Source: Mucilaginibacter arboris (GTDB lineage Bacteria > Bacteroidota > Bacteroidia > Sphingobacteriales > Sphingobacteriaceae). From it: 64,000 nt of DNA. Shown here piece by piece: positions 15,420 to 50,537 of this stretch. Where the stretch lies: assembly GCF_009754915.1 (NCBI RefSeq), contig NZ_WPIK01000001.1, positions 310,001 to 374,000 on the forward strand, read 5' to 3'. The first letter of the stretch is position 1. The number at the start of each line of letters is the position of its first letter. Below the pieces are notes generated by a model, which saw only the letters and a program-made list of their open reading frames with translations, was not told the DNA's origin and ran no database searches. The position numbers were made by a program, and so were the translations under genes.

Positions 15420-15482
15420 TTGAGGAAGAAGGTATTTCAGAAAGTATCAAAAGCTGTTTAATTTATCCCGGGAAAAATGCTG

Positions 15483-15575
15483 ATGCTTCTTTTAGCACTA
15501 TAAAATCGGTGTTTACCCCTTCTGCCGATACAAAAGCCATTTGCCTTGCAGATTTTTAGGTGATAAAAGAAGCAT
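15483..15575. repeat. Head-to-head pair of the dispersed 12-mer
   Basis: ATGCTTCTTTTA at 15483-15494 and TAAAAGAAGCAT at 15564-15575 are exact and face each other across 69 bases. The right copy carries the long flank (TTTTTAGGTGA before it). Confidence 0.85.
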
Positions 15576-15632
15576 CTCCAATAATTTGAACATCATTTAA
15601 ACCGCTTCTAAGCTATTGATTTTATAAATACG

Positions 15633-15654
15633 ATTTGCTTTTGTAAAAGCAAAT
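15633..15654. repeat. Perfect palindrome with 10-base arms
   Basis: ATTTGCTTTT (15633-15642) and AAAAGCAAAT (15645-15654) around GT. It has near-dyad symmetry with almost no loop, so it resembles a protein-binding operator more than an RNA hairpin. Confidence 0.6.
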
Positions 15655-22437: not shown

Positions 22438-22479
22438 ATAAAAGAAGCCTTTCAGATTTTTCTGAAAGGCTTCTTTTAT
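22438..22479. terminator. Bidirectional terminator built on the 12-mer core
   Basis: A perfect 19-base stem (22438-22456 with 22461-22479) and a 4-base loop. The outer part of each arm is the repeat core (TAAAAGAAGC / GCTTCTTTTA), so two facing near-copies form the stem. It lies 22 bases behind the rplS stop and also serves the psd transcript. Confidence 0.88.
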
Positions 22480-22501
22480 CAACCTAAATCTTTTTAAGAA
22501 A

Positions 22502-31768: not shown

Positions 31769-31807
31769 TAAAAGAAGCATGTTCCGTTTTTAGCAATGCT
31801 TCTTTTA
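31769..31807. terminator. Hairpin formed by two facing 12-mers
   Basis: TAAAAGAAGCAT (31769-31780) and ATGCTTCTTTTA (31796-31807) form a 12-base perfect stem with a 15-base loop. After it come TCGGC and a T run (TTTTTTT), so it can work as a terminator of the LUD gene. Confidence 0.8.
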
Positions 31808-31835
31808 TCGGCTTTTTTTATTGATCTATTATTCT

Positions 31836-40662: not shown

Positions 40663-42501
40663 TTATTTTGCTTTTTCCAAACGATTGACATTTAAAACAG
40701 GCGTTTTAATTCCTTTAAGTGCGGTTTGATCTGTTTTTATCAACTCCAGAACAACAACTTCATTGCTGCCTTTTTTGAGCCATTCTGCCGGTAAATAAAT
40801 GGTTTGCTGCGGGCCGATGTTCCAATAACGGCCTAAATTATGTCCGTTTACAAAAACCACTCCTTTTCCCCAGTTACTTAAATCCAGGTAAGTATCTGCA
40901 ACTTCGTTTAAACGGAAAGTTCCTTTACGTATAACCGGTGAAGTATTACTGTTTTGAGAAGAAGCAAACCGGATCCTTTTGGTATCATTAAAAGGCAAGC
41001 GGTACATTTTCCAGTTTTTTACTTCGCTTCCATTAAAAATTACCTTTTCTGTAATGCCTTTTTTATTTTGAAGGAGATATTTTCCAAAGTTGATCCGGCC
41101 CAAATTTTCTACCAAAATATCAAGCGTTACTTGCCCGGCCGGTAATGTTATTGCCAAGCTGTCCTGGTTTAAACGCCGGTCCAAAGTTCCAACCGTTTTA
41201 CCGTTAACCATTACCACTGCGTAATCCCGGAGTTCTTTTAGCTTCAGCATGCTTCTTTTACCACCTAAAAGTTGTGTCCTGTACAAAACAAACCCGTAAT
41301 CCTGGTTCAAATCCTCAAAAGTCAACGGCGTTGCATGATTAACAGCAGCAGGTAAATTATCGAGCAAACTTGCCGATTGCGTTAATTGAACCGCTGGTAT
41401 TTCCATTACTGGTTTCGGGGCCGGAACCGCTGGTAATTTAGTCCCTGCCGGCAAATGCTTTTCAATTACTTCTCTAAATCTCGTAAATTTATGCGTAGCG
41501 TTTCCGGCTTCGTTTAAAGGCGCATCATAATCGTAACTGCTAACCTGGGGTTCAAAAGGCGAATGATCGTTGTAGTTGGCGCCATTCATAAAACCGCGTG
41601 TCGAGCCGCCATGGAACATATACATGTTGATGGAAATTCCCGCGGCCAGTACAGAATCCAGTTTTCCGGCATATTGTTCTGCCGGTATTGTATGGTGTTT
41701 TGTTCCCCACCAGTCAAACCAGGCCGGATACCATTCGGCAATGTAATACGGCCCTTTTCCTTCGTGTAAACTATTGACTAACGCTTTTACTTTTTTAGGA
41801 TTATCCAGTCCGTTTATTGCAGGAAGCAATCCGGGTAAATGGCCGTTCCTAGCATCGGCAGCCGGATCGCAGGTATAAAGCAACCCATCAAATCCCGCTT
41901 CTTTAAACAACTTTTGGTTGATGGCAAGGTATTCTTTATCGCTGCCGTAAGAACCGTATTCGTTCTCAATCTGAACCATTAAAATATTTCCGCCATGGTT
42001 AATTTGCAGAGGAGCTAATTGTTTTCCAACTTCTTTGATGTAAGTTTCATATTCCTTTAAATACTTCGCCTCTTTGCTGCGCACAACCAAACCTTTTTCA
42101 TTTTGCAGCCAGTACGGGTAACCGCCAAATTCCCATTCGGCACATACATACGGACTTGGCCTCAAAATCACCCATAAACCTTCCTCTTTGGCTATTTTTA
42201 CAAATTCTGCAATGTTATTATTGCCGCTAAAATCAAAATGTCCTTTTTGTGGTTCGTGCAAATTCCAGAAAACGTAAGTTCCAATGGTATTGAGTCCCAT
42301 TGCTTTGGCCATTTTCATTCGTGCATGCCAGGCTTCGCGGGGAACGCGCGGATAATGCATCTCTCCGGAAATCATTTGGAAAGGTTTCCCGTCGAGCAAA
42401 AAATTCGAATCGCCTAAAGCAAAAGTATGTGTAGCTTTTTGCGCGATGCTGTTTTTAAGGCATAAAAAAAGTATTACCGGCAGGATATATTTCATCTTCA
42501 T
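40663..42501 (-). CDS. Beta-galactosidase, GH35
   Basis: 612 residues with a signal peptide (MKMKYILPVILFLCLKNSIAQ). A (beta/alpha)8 barrel carries the acid/base Glu181 (QIENEYG) and nucleophile Glu256 (YIAEWYPAWFDWW). The opening block HTFALGDSNFLLDGKPFQMISGEMHYPRVPREAW is typical. The C-terminal part holds beta-sandwich domains (WGKGVVFVNGHNLGRYWNIGPQQTIYLP). It removes terminal beta-galactose. It is the last gene of the PUL; its start overlaps the GH2 stop by 4 bases. An exact 12-mer (41249-41260) is read as KRSM. Confidence 0.94.
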   Translation of the reverse strand: MKMKYILPVILFLCLKNSIAQKATHTFALGDSNFLLDGKPFQMISGEMHYPRVPREAWHARMKMAKAMGLNTIGTYVFWNLHEPQKGHFDFSGNNNIAEFVKIAKEEGLWVILRPSPYVCAEWEFGGYPYWLQNEKGLVVRSKEAKYLKEYETYIKEVGKQLAPLQINHGGNILMVQIENEYGSYGSDKEYLAINQKLFKEAGFDGLLYTCDPAADARNGHLPGLLPAINGLDNPKKVKALVNSLHEGKGPYYIAEWYPAWFDWWGTKHHTIPAEQYAGKLDSVLAAGISINMYMFHGGSTRGFMNGANYNDHSPFEPQVSSYDYDAPLNEAGNATHKFTRFREVIEKHLPAGTKLPAVPAPKPVMEIPAVQLTQSASLLDNLPAAVNHATPLTFEDLNQDYGFVLYRTQLLGGKRSMLKLKELRDYAVVMVNGKTVGTLDRRLNQDSLAITLPAGQVTLDILVENLGRINFGKYLLQNKKGITEKVIFNGSEVKNWKMYRLPFNDTKRIRFASSQNSNTSPVIRKGTFRLNEVADTYLDLSNWGKGVVFVNGHNLGRYWNIGPQQTIYLPAEWLKKGSNEVVVLELIKTDQTALKGIKTPVLNVNRLEKAK

Positions 42502-44351
42502 TTCTTCTTGCTATTTGATGCTTTTTCAATTTGATTGTAATAGGCTTTCAGGATGTAAAAAGCCTTCTTTTTGTTGCCCTGATCGTCGTACAAACCTTTA
42601 CGGTTCCAGCCGTCCTGGTATTGATTGTTACGTTTTGGCGAACGGAAATCATTCAAAACCCAGGGCGAAAGTCCCACAAAATTTTCAGGCATCTTTTTAA
42701 ACATGGCTACCTGCTCTTTAAAATACCATTCCTGGAATTCTTCGCTAAAACGGGTTAAAGAATCCGCATGAAAACCACCTTTTGCACCTGCGCCAGTTTC
42801 GCTGATAAATAAAGGTTTATTGTAAGGTGTGGACCAGTTAGTAGTGCGGCATTTATCCGGCAAGCCGCCGTACCAGCCTAAATACTCGTTAAAAGCAACG
42901 AGATCAACAAATTCTCCAAGCGGATCATTTACTTCATTCAGGTTTTTTAGCGCGCTATAATTTACTTCCAGCGCAGCTGAAACCATACGTGTTTGATCGA
43001 GCTTTTTAGCCTCAGTAATTAAACTGTGCATGAAATTGGTACGAGTAGGACTAACTGGCGTTTCATTTCCAACCGACCAGATAATCACGCTGGCTCTGTT
43101 ATGATCGCGCGTAATCATTTCGTTTAATTGTGCTTTTGCTTTATCCAGCACTTCATTACTGCCGAAGTTGATGGTCCAATAAACCGGAATTTCAGACCAA
43201 ACCAGAATTCCAAGCGAATCAGCCAAACGAGTCATGGTTTCATCGTGCGGATAATGTGCTAACCGAACCATATTGCAGCCTAATTCTCTCGCCTCGCCTA
43301 ACAATTGCATTGCATCTTCTTTACTGTAAGCTCGTCTGATTTCTTTTGGAATTTCTCCGTGGATACTGATACCACGCATAAAAATCGGCTTGCCGTTAAG
43401 CAAAACCTGTTTGCCAAAAGCTTCTACCGTTCTAAAACCTATTTTATCTTCTGTTTTGTCTGAATTTGAACTGATGATAACACGATATAATTTCGGTGTT
43501 TCCGGAGACCATAACTGTATTTTCGGAAGTGTAAAATGAACTTTTGTTATCGTATCTGATGCCGTAAATTGTTGTCTTAGTTTGAGTTCAGGAATTTCAA
43601 CAGTTAGTTTTTCACCGCTTGCCGGCGCTCGATTTAGTTTAATCCAACCTTCCACTTCCGGCGTTTTAGCAGGAATTGAACCGGGCGATACTCTTTTTAG
43701 CTGAATAAAATAATCCTGAATAAAGTTATCAGGCACTTCAATCAGCTTTACTTCACGTGTAATGCCGCCATAATTCCACCAATCTGTGTTTAAAGTCGGC
43801 ACTTCATCTGCGTAACGTTTATTATCAACTTTTACGACTAAAAAGTTATTGGTTTCTTTTAACAGGTTGGCAGGAACTTCAAAATTAAAAGGCGTAAAAC
43901 CACCTTTGTGCGCACCTAATTTTTTACCGTTTAAATAAACATCAGCACGGTAATTTACAGCACCAAAGTAGAGGAAAACCTTACCAGAAGCAGATTTTTT
44001 ATAATCAAATGATTTTTTGTACCAAACCGTTCCTTCATAATACAGAAACTTTGGATCCTGATGGTTCCAGTCGCCGGGAACGTTCAAAGAATTTTTTTCC
44101 TGATAAGTGTGCTCGTTCAGCTCGGTTTTATTGGCTGGAACATCTGTATTCCAGTAAGCACCGCCATTGTTTTCGTTGAGTTCCTTGTAGCGGTAATCGT
44201 AAAAACCGGTTTCGTACGGATCAACAATATACTGCCATTTCCCGTTTAAACTAACGGATTTACGGTTTGGAATATTGGTAATCAGATTATTCTGGGCGAT
44301 AGCTGCAAAAGCAATCAGCCAGGTAAATCCTGTTAAAGTTATTTTTTTCAT
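42498..44351 (-). CDS. GH2 glycosidase, beta-glucuronidase-like
   Basis: 617 residues, secreted. Jelly-roll (WYKKSFDY, VYLNGKKLGAHKGGFTPFNF), Ig-like and TIM-barrel domains of GH2. Acid/base Glu430 is in WSVGNET and nucleophile Glu518 in FISETGAG. Near the C-terminus, Asn583-Arg-Lys585 (NRK in GWNRKGLYD) lies where the N-x-K motif of beta-glucuronidases binds the uronate carboxyl; galactosidases lack it. I therefore prefer glucuronidase. Overlaps both neighbours by 4 bases. At its start a 12-mer near-copy (44352-44363) spans the junction. Confidence 0.85.
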   Translation of the reverse strand: MKKITLTGFTWLIAFAAIAQNNLITNIPNRKSVSLNGKWQYIVDPYETGFYDYRYKELNENNGGAYWNTDVPANKTELNEHTYQEKNSLNVPGDWNHQDPKFLYYEGTVWYKKSFDYKKSASGKVFLYFGAVNYRADVYLNGKKLGAHKGGFTPFNFEVPANLLKETNNFLVVKVDNKRYADEVPTLNTDWWNYGGITREVKLIEVPDNFIQDYFIQLKRVSPGSIPAKTPEVEGWIKLNRAPASGEKLTVEIPELKLRQQFTASDTITKVHFTLPKIQLWSPETPKLYRVIISSNSDKTEDKIGFRTVEAFGKQVLLNGKPIFMRGISIHGEIPKEIRRAYSKEDAMQLLGEARELGCNMVRLAHYPHDETMTRLADSLGILVWSEIPVYWTINFGSNEVLDKAKAQLNEMITRDHNRASVIIWSVGNETPVSPTRTNFMHSLITEAKKLDQTRMVSAALEVNYSALKNLNEVNDPLGEFVDLVAFNEYLGWYGGLPDKCRTTNWSTPYNKPLFISETGAGAKGGFHADSLTRFSEEFQEWYFKEQVAMFKKMPENFVGLSPWVLNDFRSPKRNNQYQDGWNRKGLYDDQGNKKKAFYILKAYYNQIEKASNSKKK

Positions 44352-45502
44352 TTGCTTCTTTTATCGTTAAAAAAATCGAGGTTCCAGTTATCCAGCCATT
44401 TAATTTCGATATCATCACCTTTAAAAGTAATGGGTAGCCAGAGGTATCGGCCATCAATTGCATCTTTTGGTGTCCATTTATCCGCCATAAAAATGAAAGC
44501 ATCTTTTTTACCGGCAACAGGAAGAACGTACGTACTTTGTCCGCCAAAAGTGATTTGAGAACCATCGCCAACACAAGGATTTCCATGATAAGTCCACGGC
44601 CCCCAAATAGATTTTGCAGAAAACCAGCGGGCAGGATTTGGCGCCCAGCCAGTAGTACCAGAACCAATCATATAATAAGTACCGTTATGCTTAAAAATAG
44701 CCGGAGCTTCGGTTTGATGGCCTGCATAAACCCTTACAAACTTGCCGGTATGGCTGGTGTAATCATCGCTTAATTCGGCTATATCTAACGTAAAGTTTTC
44801 TTCTGCAGAGAAAACATGGTAAGCTTTACCATCATCATCTACAAAAAGATTCATGTCCCGCGCCATTTGTCCGCCTGGCAGATCCCTGCAAAAAAAGCCA
44901 TCACTTTTAGTAGCCGGACTTGCACAGTTAACTTTTTCTGATTCCGGCGTTCCTTCCGGATAAAAAGGCATTTTTCCGGCATTTGGACGGTAACTTTTGA
45001 TGAACCGATACGGGCCATTAACTTTATTGCTGACAGCCAAACCGGTACGAGCCGCTTTGTACCCTTTGCCCAGCAGCTCCAAATGGAACCACATTACATA
45101 TTTTTTGGTCTTTTTGTTATAAATTACTTTTGGCCGTTCAAGAATGCAGCCTTTTGCAATATCACTTGTTGTATCAGGGGAAACACTTAAAGCAATACCT
45201 TCATCTTTCCAGTTGTATAAATCTTTGGAGGAATAGCAATGCACGCCAACCATTGCCCGGTTGCCTGCGCCGCCTGCAATTTTATGTTCGCCGAACCAGT
45301 AATAAGTTTTATTCTGATACAAAATGCCGCCGCCATGCGCATTGATATGTACGCCATTATTATCCGGCCAGATTACTCCGGGCTGAAAGCTTGTGCTTCT
45401 TTTACCGGCTAAATCTTGTGCTTCAACCTGAAAAACAACCGATAAAAGAAGCATCAGGATTATTCCAACTTCATGATACTTTTGTATGATGTTAACTTTC
45501 AT
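44348..45502 (-). CDS. GH43 subfamily 24-like exo-beta-1,3-galactanase candidate
   Basis: 384 residues with a signal peptide. The five-bladed propeller opens with GVHINAHGGGILYQNKTYYWFGEHK, the pattern of GH43_24 exo-beta-1,3-galactanases, rather than the ADP motif of ordinary GH43 arabinosidases. The Asp base of blade 1 is replaced (NAHGGG). Glu in LERPKV and in HQTEAPAIFK remain, as expected for that subfamily. Such enzymes release galactose, even when side-chained, from beta-1,3-galactan. The signal peptide has an exact 12-mer copy (45443-45454, LMLLLS) and the C-terminus ends with a near-copy (DKRS). Activity unproven. Confidence 0.75.
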   Translation of the reverse strand: MKVNIIQKYHEVGIILMLLLSVVFQVEAQDLAGKRSTSFQPGVIWPDNNGVHINAHGGGILYQNKTYYWFGEHKIAGGAGNRAMVGVHCYSSKDLYNWKDEGIALSVSPDTTSDIAKGCILERPKVIYNKKTKKYVMWFHLELLGKGYKAARTGLAVSNKVNGPYRFIKSYRPNAGKMPFYPEGTPESEKVNCASPATKSDGFFCRDLPGGQMARDMNLFVDDDGKAYHVFSAEENFTLDIAELSDDYTSHTGKFVRVYAGHQTEAPAIFKHNGTYYMIGSGTTGWAPNPARWFSAKSIWGPWTYHGNPCVGDGSQITFGGQSTYVLPVAGKKDAFIFMADKWTPKDAIDGRYLWLPITFKGDDIEIKWLDNWNLDFFNDKRSK

Positions 45503-46762: not shown

Positions 46763-47749
46763 TTACCGTTTTTTATAATCCTTTAACTTAACAGGCTTTA
46801 ATTTTTCAAAAACATCTACCGGAAGTATATTTCCATCCTTATCAAATTTCATAGAAGAAATGCAGGTTTCCCGGTTGTAGCCATTTCCACCGGGAATTTT
46901 AAAACGATGATAAGCAATGTACCATTCATCTTTCCCCGGAACCTGAACTACCGAATGATGCCCTGCTCCTTTTACCACACCTTTTCCTTTTAGTACCGGG
47001 AAACCGACTGCTTTTTTAAAAGGGCCAAGCGGAGAAGTGGAAGTAGCATAAGCAATGGAATATCGAGGGTCGCGGGTATCATATTCAGACCACATTAGGT
47101 AATAAATTCCTTTTCGTTTGATCATAAACGGACCTTCGTTATAACCTTCTGGTTTAAAGGAGATCATTTTTGTAGTATCGCAGGAAATCATATCGTCATT
47201 TAACTTTACCACATGGCATTGTCCCTGACCAAAATACAAGTAAGCCGCGCCATCATCATCTACAAAAACCATCGGATCAATTACTTGTCCGCGTACCGAA
47301 CCTTTTTTAATCAGCGGTTTTCCAAGCGGATCTTTAAATGGGCCGGTTGGTTTATCGGCTACAGCAACACCAATATTTACATCTGCTGAATAATAGAAGT
47401 AATATTTACCATTTTTTTGTGCGATGGTAGGCGCCCAGGCACGCACTTTTGCCCAGCTTAAATCTTTTGGAAGATCGATGATTGTTCCTTCATTTTTCCA
47501 GTTGACTAAATTATCAGACGACCAGCAAGTAAAGTAAGTTGAAAGCCAACCAGTTGTGCCATCAGTGGTTGGGTAGATATAAAATTTGCCATTAAAAACA
47601 GTTAGATTCGGATCAGCATAAACACCGGGAAGTACGGCGGGCGGAGCATTTAATGTATCTGTTTTCTGCGCAAAGCCTTTCCATCCAATTAAAATCATTG
47701 CTGTTAAAAGGATTGAACCGATGCTTCTTTTATCACCTAAAAATCTCAT
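46763..47749 (-). CDS. GH43 family glycoside hydrolase
   Basis: 328 residues. The propeller has all three GH43 acidic residues: Asp46 in GVYADPNLTV, Asp in GQVIDPMVFVDDDG and Glu in YNEGPFMIK. It may be an alpha-L-arabinofuranosidase, but the subfamily is uncertain. It starts 2 bases after the GH88 stop. The first codons (MRFLGDKRSIGS) are written by a long copy of the dispersed repeat (47721-47749), giving start codon and the basic n-region of the signal peptide, which then continues ILLTAMILIGWKGFAQ. Confidence 0.88.
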   Translation of the reverse strand: MRFLGDKRSIGSILLTAMILIGWKGFAQKTDTLNAPPAVLPGVYADPNLTVFNGKFYIYPTTDGTTGWLSTYFTCWSSDNLVNWKNEGTIIDLPKDLSWAKVRAWAPTIAQKNGKYYFYYSADVNIGVAVADKPTGPFKDPLGKPLIKKGSVRGQVIDPMVFVDDDGAAYLYFGQGQCHVVKLNDDMISCDTTKMISFKPEGYNEGPFMIKRKGIYYLMWSEYDTRDPRYSIAYATSTSPLGPFKKAVGFPVLKGKGVVKGAGHHSVVQVPGKDEWYIAYHRFKIPGGNGYNRETCISSMKFDKDGNILPVDVFEKLKPVKLKDYKKR

Positions 47750-47751
47750 TG

Positions 47752-48960
47752 CTATTTTTTATTTAGGTTTTTATATCGGATCATCGCTTCAACAAAATAA
47801 TAATCGGCGTAAGTAAGCGGCACGTCTATTTCTGTTTTTTGCGGCATGTTCCCGACACTATGTTCCAGAATAAATCCACCGTTTGTACCTGCTTTTGCTT
47901 TGTATGCAGGAGATGATAAAGTTTGCAGCATCGTTTGAGCAGTATTAAAATAGAGCTGATTGTCTTTTGCATCAGCATAACGGCACAACTCTAAAAACGC
48001 AGAAGCCATTACCGATGCAGCAGAAGCATCGCGCAAAGCATTCGGAATATCAGGCGCATTATAATCCCAGTAAGGAATTTTATCTTTTGGCAGATTAGGA
48101 TTTTGCAGGATAAAAGAAGCAATATGCTTAGCCTGGTCGAGATACTTTTTATCGTGCGTTTCGCGGTACATCACGGTGTAACCATATAATCCCCAAGCTT
48201 GTCCGCGCGCCCAGGCCGATTCATCTGCATAACCTTGCGCCGTTCTTTTTTGCTGAACGGCTCCTGTTTCCGGATTATAATTTACCACGTGATAAGAACT
48301 GTAATCCGCCCGGAAATGGTTTTTCATCGTGGTATTGGCATGCGTAACGGCAATCTTATAAAAAGAAGAATCGCCGGTTGCTTTGGTTGCCCAAAACAGC
48401 AGTTCGAGGTTCATCATGTTATCAATGATGACTAAATATTCGGGTTTATTAGAATCCCAGGATTTGATGCAGCCAACTTTCGGATCAAAACGGGTAGAAA
48501 GTGATTTGGCGCTGTTGATCAGGATTTGCTTGTATTCTGGTTTTGGTTCTATTTTCTCCGCATTGCCAAAGCTGCAATACATCATAAAGCCCAAATCGTG
48601 CGTGGTTTTGTTGTACTGCTCTTTTTGCAGGATGTTCAACATCCGGTTTGCTTCCGTTAACAAAGCCTGATCTTTTGTTTGCTGATACAGATACAGCAGA
48701 GTTCCCGGATAAAAACCGCTGCACCACCAGCCCGAGCCGCTTGTTTCGAGTTTATCAGTATTTGGATGATAAGTTTTCGGAAACTGATCTGGCGGCAGCT
48801 CCTGCATCAACACTTTATACTGCGCATCTGCATCTTTAAAGTTTTGGTTGATGGTTTGCAACAAGTTTTTATCCTGCTTAAAAGAAGTATGCTGCGCAAA
48901 ACAGACTAAAGAAAAACTGATTAAACTGATGCCAAGTAAAGATATCGATCTGAATTTCAT
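47752..48960 (-). CDS. GH88 family unsaturated glucuronyl hydrolase
   Basis: 402 residues with a signal peptide. It has an (alpha/alpha)6 barrel with the two key acids of GH88: Asp122 in THDLGFMMY and Asp180 in IIDNMMNLELLFW. The RTAQGYADESAWARGQAWGLYGY block is typical as well. The family removes 4,5-unsaturated glucuronate that lyases leave on oligosaccharides. GH105 is a relative but this motif set is closer to GH88. Its place just after the BNR_4 gene suggests they work in succession. A near-copy of the 12-mer lies at 48111-48122. Confidence 0.87.
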   Translation of the reverse strand: MKFRSISLLGISLISFSLVCFAQHTSFKQDKNLLQTINQNFKDADAQYKVLMQELPPDQFPKTYHPNTDKLETSGSGWWCSGFYPGTLLYLYQQTKDQALLTEANRMLNILQKEQYNKTTHDLGFMMYCSFGNAEKIEPKPEYKQILINSAKSLSTRFDPKVGCIKSWDSNKPEYLVIIDNMMNLELLFWATKATGDSSFYKIAVTHANTTMKNHFRADYSSYHVVNYNPETGAVQQKRTAQGYADESAWARGQAWGLYGYTVMYRETHDKKYLDQAKHIASFILQNPNLPKDKIPYWDYNAPDIPNALRDASAASVMASAFLELCRYADAKDNQLYFNTAQTMLQTLSSPAYKAKAGTNGGFILEHSVGNMPQKTEIDVPLTYADYYFVEAMIRYKNLNKK

Positions 48961-49208: not shown

Positions 49209-50537
49209 TTATTTCAATTTTGGGTTCCATTCTAAAACCTGCACCATTTGCGGTGCAACAGTTGCATTTCCTTCGCCATCTACCTGTTCTACTTTTTCTA
49301 CAAAAAGGTTCAGGATGCTTCTTTTACGCCATAATTCTGTATCGTAACTGGGTTCCCAGGAACCGACAGAAGTTGTAGTTAAATCCTGCACTTCCCATTT
49401 TCCTTTTTCAAGGTCGGAAGAAATGGCGGCTGAAACTTTACTGCCACGTTCTGCATCCCGAAAAATCAATATGGCTGCAAGATGATTGCTTTTTTGCGAT
49501 GCTAAGATTTGCGGACGGGAAATAGGAATGCTTTTCGTTCCGCCTCCGCTTAAACTGAAAGCTGTTTTACGAAACCCCAGGTTCTGGACTTTCCAAGTAG
49601 AACCGTTATGGTAAACGATGTGATATTGCGGAACAGTAGTTGCGGAATCGCGCCAGTAAGTTGCAATAAACGGATGACCTGCAGCATCTGTAGTCATGGA
49701 AGTTTGGTTGATCAGTTCGCTTTTTGGCAGAATTTTAACCGCATATTCTGCAGTTGCGGCTGTTATTGGCAAAGTATATTTTTCTCCGGTTGATTTTTCC
49801 CAGGTTTTTCCGCCATCAATTGATCTTGCATAAGCCAGATCATGGTTGCTGGCCACATCCGGACTTTCGCGCCAAACCCAGGAAATATGGACCGTACCTT
49901 TTGCATCTATGCAAGCTTGTGTATAAGGGTTTCGCTGCCCTTCGCCGCTGATTAAATTATTGCTTAATTGTTCCCATTTCTGGGTTTTGATATCGTATTT
50001 ATTGATGATGAGATCGCCTTGCCCTGATCTTCCATCACGATAAAAGAATAATAAATTACCATCAGGTAGTTTATAAAATTCAGGATAAGTAACCTGGTTT
50101 TCTTTGATGCCGGTCATGCTTCTTTTATCACCTAAAATTAAGGATCCGGGAGAAACACTTCTGCAATATCTTAACGGATTACCGTGATGGTCCCAGGAAA
50201 GATGCAGAAAACCAGCACCATCAACCATAATGGCAATGGTATTATGTGCATCGGCAGCATTTCCCTGATAAGGTGTTTTTTGAAGCTGCCAGTTTGAAGA
50301 ACCTGATTTTCTTTTGCCTAGCACTACGTATCGGTTTTCATCATAAAAAGCAATGAATTGCGTATCCCGAAAAGTAACCAATGAATTTTTGCGAAAAACA
50401 ACGGCGTTGACCGAATTATTGGCCCAGGCTTTTGCAACAGGAACGAGATTTTGCGCTTTAGAATTTTGCATGCTAAAAACAGCATTCAGTAAGAACGTAG
50501 CAGCAAAAAAATAAAGTTTCCTTCCAGACCTAATCAT
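49209..50537 (-). CDS. BNR_4 beta-propeller, GH145/PL25-like
   Basis: 442 residues with a signal peptide. A seven-bladed propeller of the BNR_4 group: FYDENRYVVLGKR, DAHNTIAIMVDGAGFLHLSW and DHHGNPLRYCRS (His98, His117, His118), VTYPEFYKLPDGNLLFFYRDG. The same fold includes enzymes that cut rhamnose-glucuronate caps of arabinogalactan (GH145/PL42) and ulvan lyases (PL24/PL25); I cannot place this one more finely. Overlaps the GH31 stop by 4 bases. Carries two exact 12-mer copies (49315-49326 as KRSI, 50116-50127 as GDKRSM). Confidence 0.75.
   Translation of the reverse strand: MIRSGRKLYFFAATFLLNAVFSMQNSKAQNLVPVAKAWANNSVNAVVFRKNSLVTFRDTQFIAFYDENRYVVLGKRKSGSSNWQLQKTPYQGNAADAHNTIAIMVDGAGFLHLSWDHHGNPLRYCRSVSPGSLILGDKRSMTGIKENQVTYPEFYKLPDGNLLFFYRDGRSGQGDLIINKYDIKTQKWEQLSNNLISGEGQRNPYTQACIDAKGTVHISWVWRESPDVASNHDLAYARSIDGGKTWEKSTGEKYTLPITAATAEYAVKILPKSELINQTSMTTDAAGHPFIATYWRDSATTVPQYHIVYHNGSTWKVQNLGFRKTAFSLSGGGTKSIPISRPQILASQKSNHLAAILIFRDAERGSKVSAAISSDLEKGKWEVQDLTTTSVGSWEPSYDTELWRKRSILNLFVEKVEQVDGEGNATVAPQMVQVLEWNPKLK

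Follow-up and report, generated by a model that had tools for sequence, protein, structure and literature searches.

An uptake-sequence-like motif abundant in one Bacteroidota genus encodes part of the predicted signal peptide of a GH43 enzyme in Mucilaginibacter arboris

Uptake sequences have, to our knowledge, been described in two proteobacterial families, both of which depend on type IV pili. Findlay and Redfield are said to have devoted a paper to uptake sequences and proteomes. Published hallmarks of uptake signal sequences (USS) and DNA uptake sequences (DUS) are a density of about 1 copy per kb, a strong consensus, no orientation bias, an excess in non-coding DNA, an AT-rich flank and an origin other than insertion; in Haemophilus, genic copies arise through substitution (PMC1626085). 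In Neisseriaceae-type uptake sequences several DUS dialects co-exist (PMC3630211). About 30 genes of N. meningitidis MC58 are annotated as starting with a DUS, some of them perhaps misannotated (PMC2346458), and recently acquired genes lack DUS (PMC2397512). Riemerella is naturally competent without pili, via ComEC, DprA, ComF and RecA (PMC8459023), and R. columbina favours its own DNA (PMC7965970).

We analyzed a window of 64,000 nucleotides from Mucilaginibacter arboris (contig NZ_WPIK01000001.1, positions 310,001 to 374,000) in which a 24-bp repeat overlaps the 5' end of a GH43 gene. The features of this gene start are the following, in window coordinates:

46763-47749, minus strand: gene for a GH43 glycoside hydrolase of 328 aa with predicted secretion, assigned by PF04616 (4e-66) and by orthologs
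47747-47749, minus strand: GH43 start ATG, not part of the repeat, the sole start candidate yielding a complete signal peptide
47721-47744, minus strand: exact 24-bp motif copy, coding for FLGDKRS(I) in the predicted n-region of the GH43 signal peptide
47744-47738, minus strand: AT tract ATTTTTA of this copy, followed by GGTGA
47732-47721, minus strand: core TAAAAGAAGCAT of this copy
47752-48960, minus strand: GH88-like gene (PF07470), immediately upstream of the GH43 gene
48879-48890, plus strand: motif copy in the GH88-like gene, coding for HTSFK just past its signal peptide

An earlier note on this DNA had claimed that a repeat copy supplies both the start codon and the signal-peptide n-region of the GH43 enzyme. 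Read directly, the minus strand from 47749 to 47721 is, as the note had it, ATGAG followed by an exact ATTTTTAGGTGATAAAAGAAGCAT, and the TAG of the GH88-like gene does end 2 nt ahead of the GH43 ATG. The first codons are ATG AGA TTT TTA GGT GAT AAA AGA AGC ATC, and translation from 47749 gives MRFLGDKRSIGSILLTAMILIGWKGFAQ, so that MRFLGDKRSI is the N-terminus of the PF04616 protein. The start codon itself is not supplied by the repeat, because the ATG sits 5' of it, its first base 5 nt away, while most of the n-region is indeed encoded by the repeat. Position 47749 is most likely the GH43 start, since no in-frame start codon was found upstream of this ATG (the reading is KIA-M) and initiation at the following in-frame ATG (codon 18) would retain just MILIGWKGFAQ, which lacks a charged n-region and is too short for a signal peptide. 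At up to 3 mismatches, the 24-mer occurs 7 times in the window against a chance expectation of 0.00.

The idea that a DNA signal shaped this N-terminus survives a comparison with orthologs, a check put forward in the note, which had named a conserved MRFLGDKRS start in such orthologs as the refuting outcome. This start was found in none of 21 GH43 orthologs that share 71-85% identity and come from genera of the family lacking the motif. Their signal peptides or extensions are short and unrelated to one another, and conservation in the alignment starts at about DTLNAP; ortholog L249, which matches only in part, is uninformative here. MRFLGDKRSI could in principle be an inherited signal peptide of the GH43 lineage that matches the repeat incidentally, and signal peptides are K/R-rich and variable enough to make a KRS start unremarkable, but an exact match over 24 bp is not expected by chance and the sequence is absent from the 21 orthologs. 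We regard this reading as extremely improbable.

The repeat consists of a 12-mer core, TAAAA(GA/AC)AG(C/T)AT, preceded on its 5' side by an AT tract at a distance of one helical turn. A sequence logo built from 397 kb displays the AT tract at positions -13 to -7, a partly fixed GSYG(R) stretch in which a G occupies -2, and the core TAAAAGAAGCAT. The AT tract and the G are common to the four core variants, with 74-85% of copies being all-AT at -12 to -8 compared to about 9% predicted by base composition. Genome-wide (4.16 Mb), the 24-mer is found 768 times at up to 3 mismatches and its reversed control 0 times. The consensus of the motif is strong, with 168 exact copies as opposed to at most 34 of any single-mismatch variant, the commonest variant being the C/T dialect. 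The three genomes of the genus contain 3246, 3710 and 2655 copies of TAAAARMAGYAT, compared to 21, 20 and 12 copies of its reversed control. The 3246 copies in the 4.16 Mb of M. arboris correspond to about 0.8/kb, and 198 other genomes of the family contain a background of 4-85 per genome. The motif is abundant in one genus only, represented here by three species. When 20-kb samples of 20 other genomes of the family were scanned for k-mers, no comparable, uptake-like motif emerged. The k-mer peaks of G014 and G026 look like local or tandem repeats. An Rfam scan of the window returned 0 matches, and a phage-borne repeat is ruled out by 2.9 million viral contigs that yielded only two single 17-mer matches. 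The motif sequence was matched in one published paper only, an unrelated one on Plasmodium.

Genic statistics were obtained for 1.2 Mb of the 4.16 Mb using a simple codon-score gene caller. Within this 1.2 Mb, motif density is 3.66/kb outside predicted CDS and 0.30/kb inside (ca. 12-fold), with about one third of all copies located within CDS. Genic copies occupy five of the six frames, the stop-giving frame being avoided. Spacing is near-random with a mean of 1.0 kb and a CV of 1.13 (slightly looser pattern). Contig C1 carries 130 copies on the plus and 144 on the minus strand without polarity per 40 kb over 400 kb, strand symmetry holds in all three congener genomes and the motif is present throughout every contig examined. 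A genome-wide, abundant, conserved and genus-specific motif could serve chromosome maintenance, as a Chi-, KOPS- or matS-like motif or a nucleoid-protein site. We consider this unlikely: the lack of strand polarity and the strand symmetry argue against Chi and KOPS, the spread over every contig argues against matS, and a 12-bp core with a distant AT tract exceeds known Chi sites, which are shorter, in length.

Inverted motif pairs form hairpins, two of which lie between genes of the window:

31769-31809, no strand assigned: inverted motif pair, terminator-like hairpin followed by a T-run
22439-22480, no strand assigned: inverted pair of motifs or near-motifs, hairpin

Such hairpins, a few with T-runs, together with the intergenic enrichment would suit a transcription signal, be it a terminator hairpin, a promoter or a regulator-binding site. 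Among 34 head-to-head pair matches, counted on both strands, just 4 however have a T-rich tail, intergenic density is similar for convergent and tandem genes and somewhat lower for divergent ones, and about a third of copies lie in CDS, all of which makes a transcription signal very unlikely.

At sites alignable with the two congeners (67 and 54), the motif is retained at 82% and 74%, respectively, with flanks 76% identical, compared to 11-12% retention for control 12-mers in the same alignments. Where congeners differ at the motif, the differences are substitutions, including a linked GA/AC change, and just 1 of 67 and 1 of 54 sites are mostly gap. Further evidence for the origin of genic copies comes from a BNR_4 gene upstream of the GH88-like gene:

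49209-50537, minus strand: BNR_4 gene with three motif copies
50474-50485, plus strand: copy 1, in the signal peptide, coding for NAVFS
50116-50139, minus strand: copy 2, in the mature part, LGDKRSM
49315-49326, minus strand: copy 3, in the mature part, RKRSI

The LGDKRSM and RKRSI copies replace variable codons, and because their alignment with 29 orthologs of motif-less genera is gap-free, these two copies were, judging by the alignment, built in place through substitution and not by insertion. The ortholog closest at the first of these sites, L306, reads LGDKLSM and is one codon apart (CTA for AGA). For the GH43 gene, the signal-peptide DNA is too diverged to give direct evidence of a substitution origin of its copy. 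The earlier note had suggested that a DNA signal was turned into a protein start. A DNA-level signal does encode most of the n-region, but it is not a one-off and does not extend to the start codon. With the traceable BNR_4 copies being in-frame substitutions, the direction is better worded as a protein that drifted to fit a signal.

These data also bear on a mobile short repeat (REP- or MITE-like), whose transposition would have spread the copies and inserted one at the GH43 start. Longer intergenic repeats of about 150-200 bp with inverted motif pairs exist, and the exact 24-mer is commoner than single-position frequencies predict, as such spread would suggest. Against this, flanks are unrelated for most of the exact copies listed, genic copies use five of the six frames and, in the cases tested, replaced orthologous codons gaplessly, and the congener sites are rarely gapped and differ by substitutions, the linked GA/AC change among them. 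The mobile-repeat reading is already disfavoured and, in our assessment, quite unlikely.

The GH43 gene is part of a carbohydrate-utilization island, in which further secreted enzymes carry the motif:

40036-62421, no strand assigned: carbohydrate-utilization (glycoside-hydrolase) island of about 22 kb, absent from the corresponding syntenic position of both congeners
44348-45502, minus strand: second GH43 gene; a motif copy at 45443-45454, plus strand, codes for MLLL in the signal-peptide core
40663-42501, minus strand: GH35 gene; the variant TAAAAACAGCAT at 42446-42457, minus strand, codes for LKNSI at the end of the signal peptide
41249-41272, minus strand: further motif copy of GH35

In total, the motif is found within the signal peptide or directly behind it in five secreted enzymes of the island: GH35 (LKNSI), GH43 (MLLL), GH43 (DKRSI), GH88 (HTSFK) and BNR_4 (NAVFS). 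Motif density is 0.63/kb in the island and 0.69/kb in the contig; the island may be old or may have been lost in the congeners. Across the 1.2 Mb, genes called as having a signal peptide contain 24 copies within their first 90 nt, with about 4.4 expected from the remainder of those genes, an enrichment that is inflated and maybe partly circular given that the call is heuristic and the reverse motif itself codes for MLLL. For the first 90 nt of all genes, the corresponding numbers are 38 observed and 24.7 expected. Signal-peptide coding DNA thus appears to be enriched in the motif, with the GH43 start as one instance of a wider pattern. Another clean case resembling the GH43 start is found at C1:171980-173893 (MKKNT[LKRSI]VLLFLLG).

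In two ORFs, C1:72862-74505 and C1:112131-113132, the reverse motif (ATGCTTCTTTTA or ATGCTGTTTTTA) provides the earliest possible start. Both have a better MK-type start downstream and are likely start misannotation traps, as in Neisseria. Start-codon calls close to motif copies need caution.

The motif shares with the USS of Haemophilus and the Pasteurellaceae (AAGTGCGGT plus AT-rich segments) a density of about 1 copy/kb, a strong consensus, no orientation bias, a non-coding excess alongside many genic copies, AT-rich flanking DNA roughly one helical turn away from the core, a substitution origin and an occurrence common to a clade with variants. In contrast to USS, the core is unrelated, there is one AT segment, 5' of the core, rather than two, and the host, whose DNA uptake is here a proposed trait, is a member of the Bacteroidota without PilB/PilT. 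Similar to the Neisseria DUS (ATGCCGTCTGAA) and its dialects, the motif has a 12-mer core, genus-level abundance, co-existing dialects, hairpin-forming inverted pairs and gene starts at motif copies (about 30 annotated for DUS). DUS however contains an ATG, whereas the GH43 ATG is outside the motif; it lacks the AT flank seen here and uses the pilus receptor ComP; and it is absent from recently acquired genes, whereas the accessory island carries the motif. Riemerella, of the same phylum, has pilus-independent competence and has ComEC and DprA in common with the genus studied here. The k-mers proposed for Riemerella are low-complexity A/T words that show no clear motif, and its machinery has no known link to the repeat described here.

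ComEC and DprA, conserved but widespread competence proteins of the inner membrane and cytosol, were found in the genus, and no match to the T2SSE/PilB/PilT family over the cut-off was obtained in any of the three congeners. With no PilB/PilT-type ATPase found, the pilus receptors known or proposed for DUS and USS are unlikely here. A pilus-independent receptor is plausible by analogy, since Riemerella is competent without pili and R. columbina prefers its own DNA. In its features the motif resembles uptake sequences and is a candidate member of this class, the pilus feature being absent. We propose that the repeat is a genus-specific, uptake-sequence-like motif that probably serves as a tag for selective uptake of self DNA or for its use in recombination. 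Uptake function, receptor and secretion by the GH43 signal peptide are all three points that we infer. Our broader proposal, for and against which we see about equal weight, is a third, independent self-DNA uptake code, located in a Bacteroidota genus, with a receptor independent of type IV pilus ATPases and with the code embedded in the proteome at signal peptides and other codons that permit it. No paper on an uptake sequence in Bacteroidota was found in a search of mainly non-subscription literature; we found no earlier report of an uptake-like motif in this phylum, while gene starts at DUS were already known from Neisseria (PMC2346458).

According to the proposed mechanism, the tag would be recognized in natural transformation, leading to biased uptake of motif-bearing self DNA. 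Copies would then build up via point mutation and recombination wherever sequence tolerates them: in intergenic DNA, in hairpins 3' of genes and in weakly constrained codons such as those of signal peptides. In the GH43 gene, a copy would have fallen in the n-region, where RFLGDKRSI may satisfy the main need, a net positive charge ahead of the hydrophobic core, and the protein would make room for the DNA signal, starting from an ATG of its own just 5' of the copy. If so, a DNA-level code can shape protein sequence, and the N-termini and signal peptides of the genus's secreted enzymes would not reflect protein adaptation alone. Uptake-type hallmarks in a genus without detectable PilB/PilT offer a direct route to the missing DNA receptor, and their occurrence in a phylum with pilus-free competence a test of the repeated evolution of self-DNA codes.

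Besides the PilB/PilT result, two further observations count against the uptake reading. Motif density in the accessory island is near the genomic value, unlike that of DUS in recently acquired genes, and some copies are located within longer dispersed intergenic repeats, so that copying adds to the count. One such element is present in the window:

15440-15640, no strand assigned: intergenic element, about 150-200 bp long, whose two divergent motifs are at 15483-15496 and 15552-15575 and which recurs elsewhere in the genus

Dispersed intergenic repeats of about 150-200 bp were also seen at L009, L016, L021 and C23:206540-206701, with a divergent pair about 80-95 nt apart, and have dozens of partial matches in the congeners. 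In tandem intergenic regions of the 1.2 Mb, the opposite motif orientation is favoured near the 3' end of the upstream gene (144:91) and the same orientation near the start of the downstream gene (98:50).
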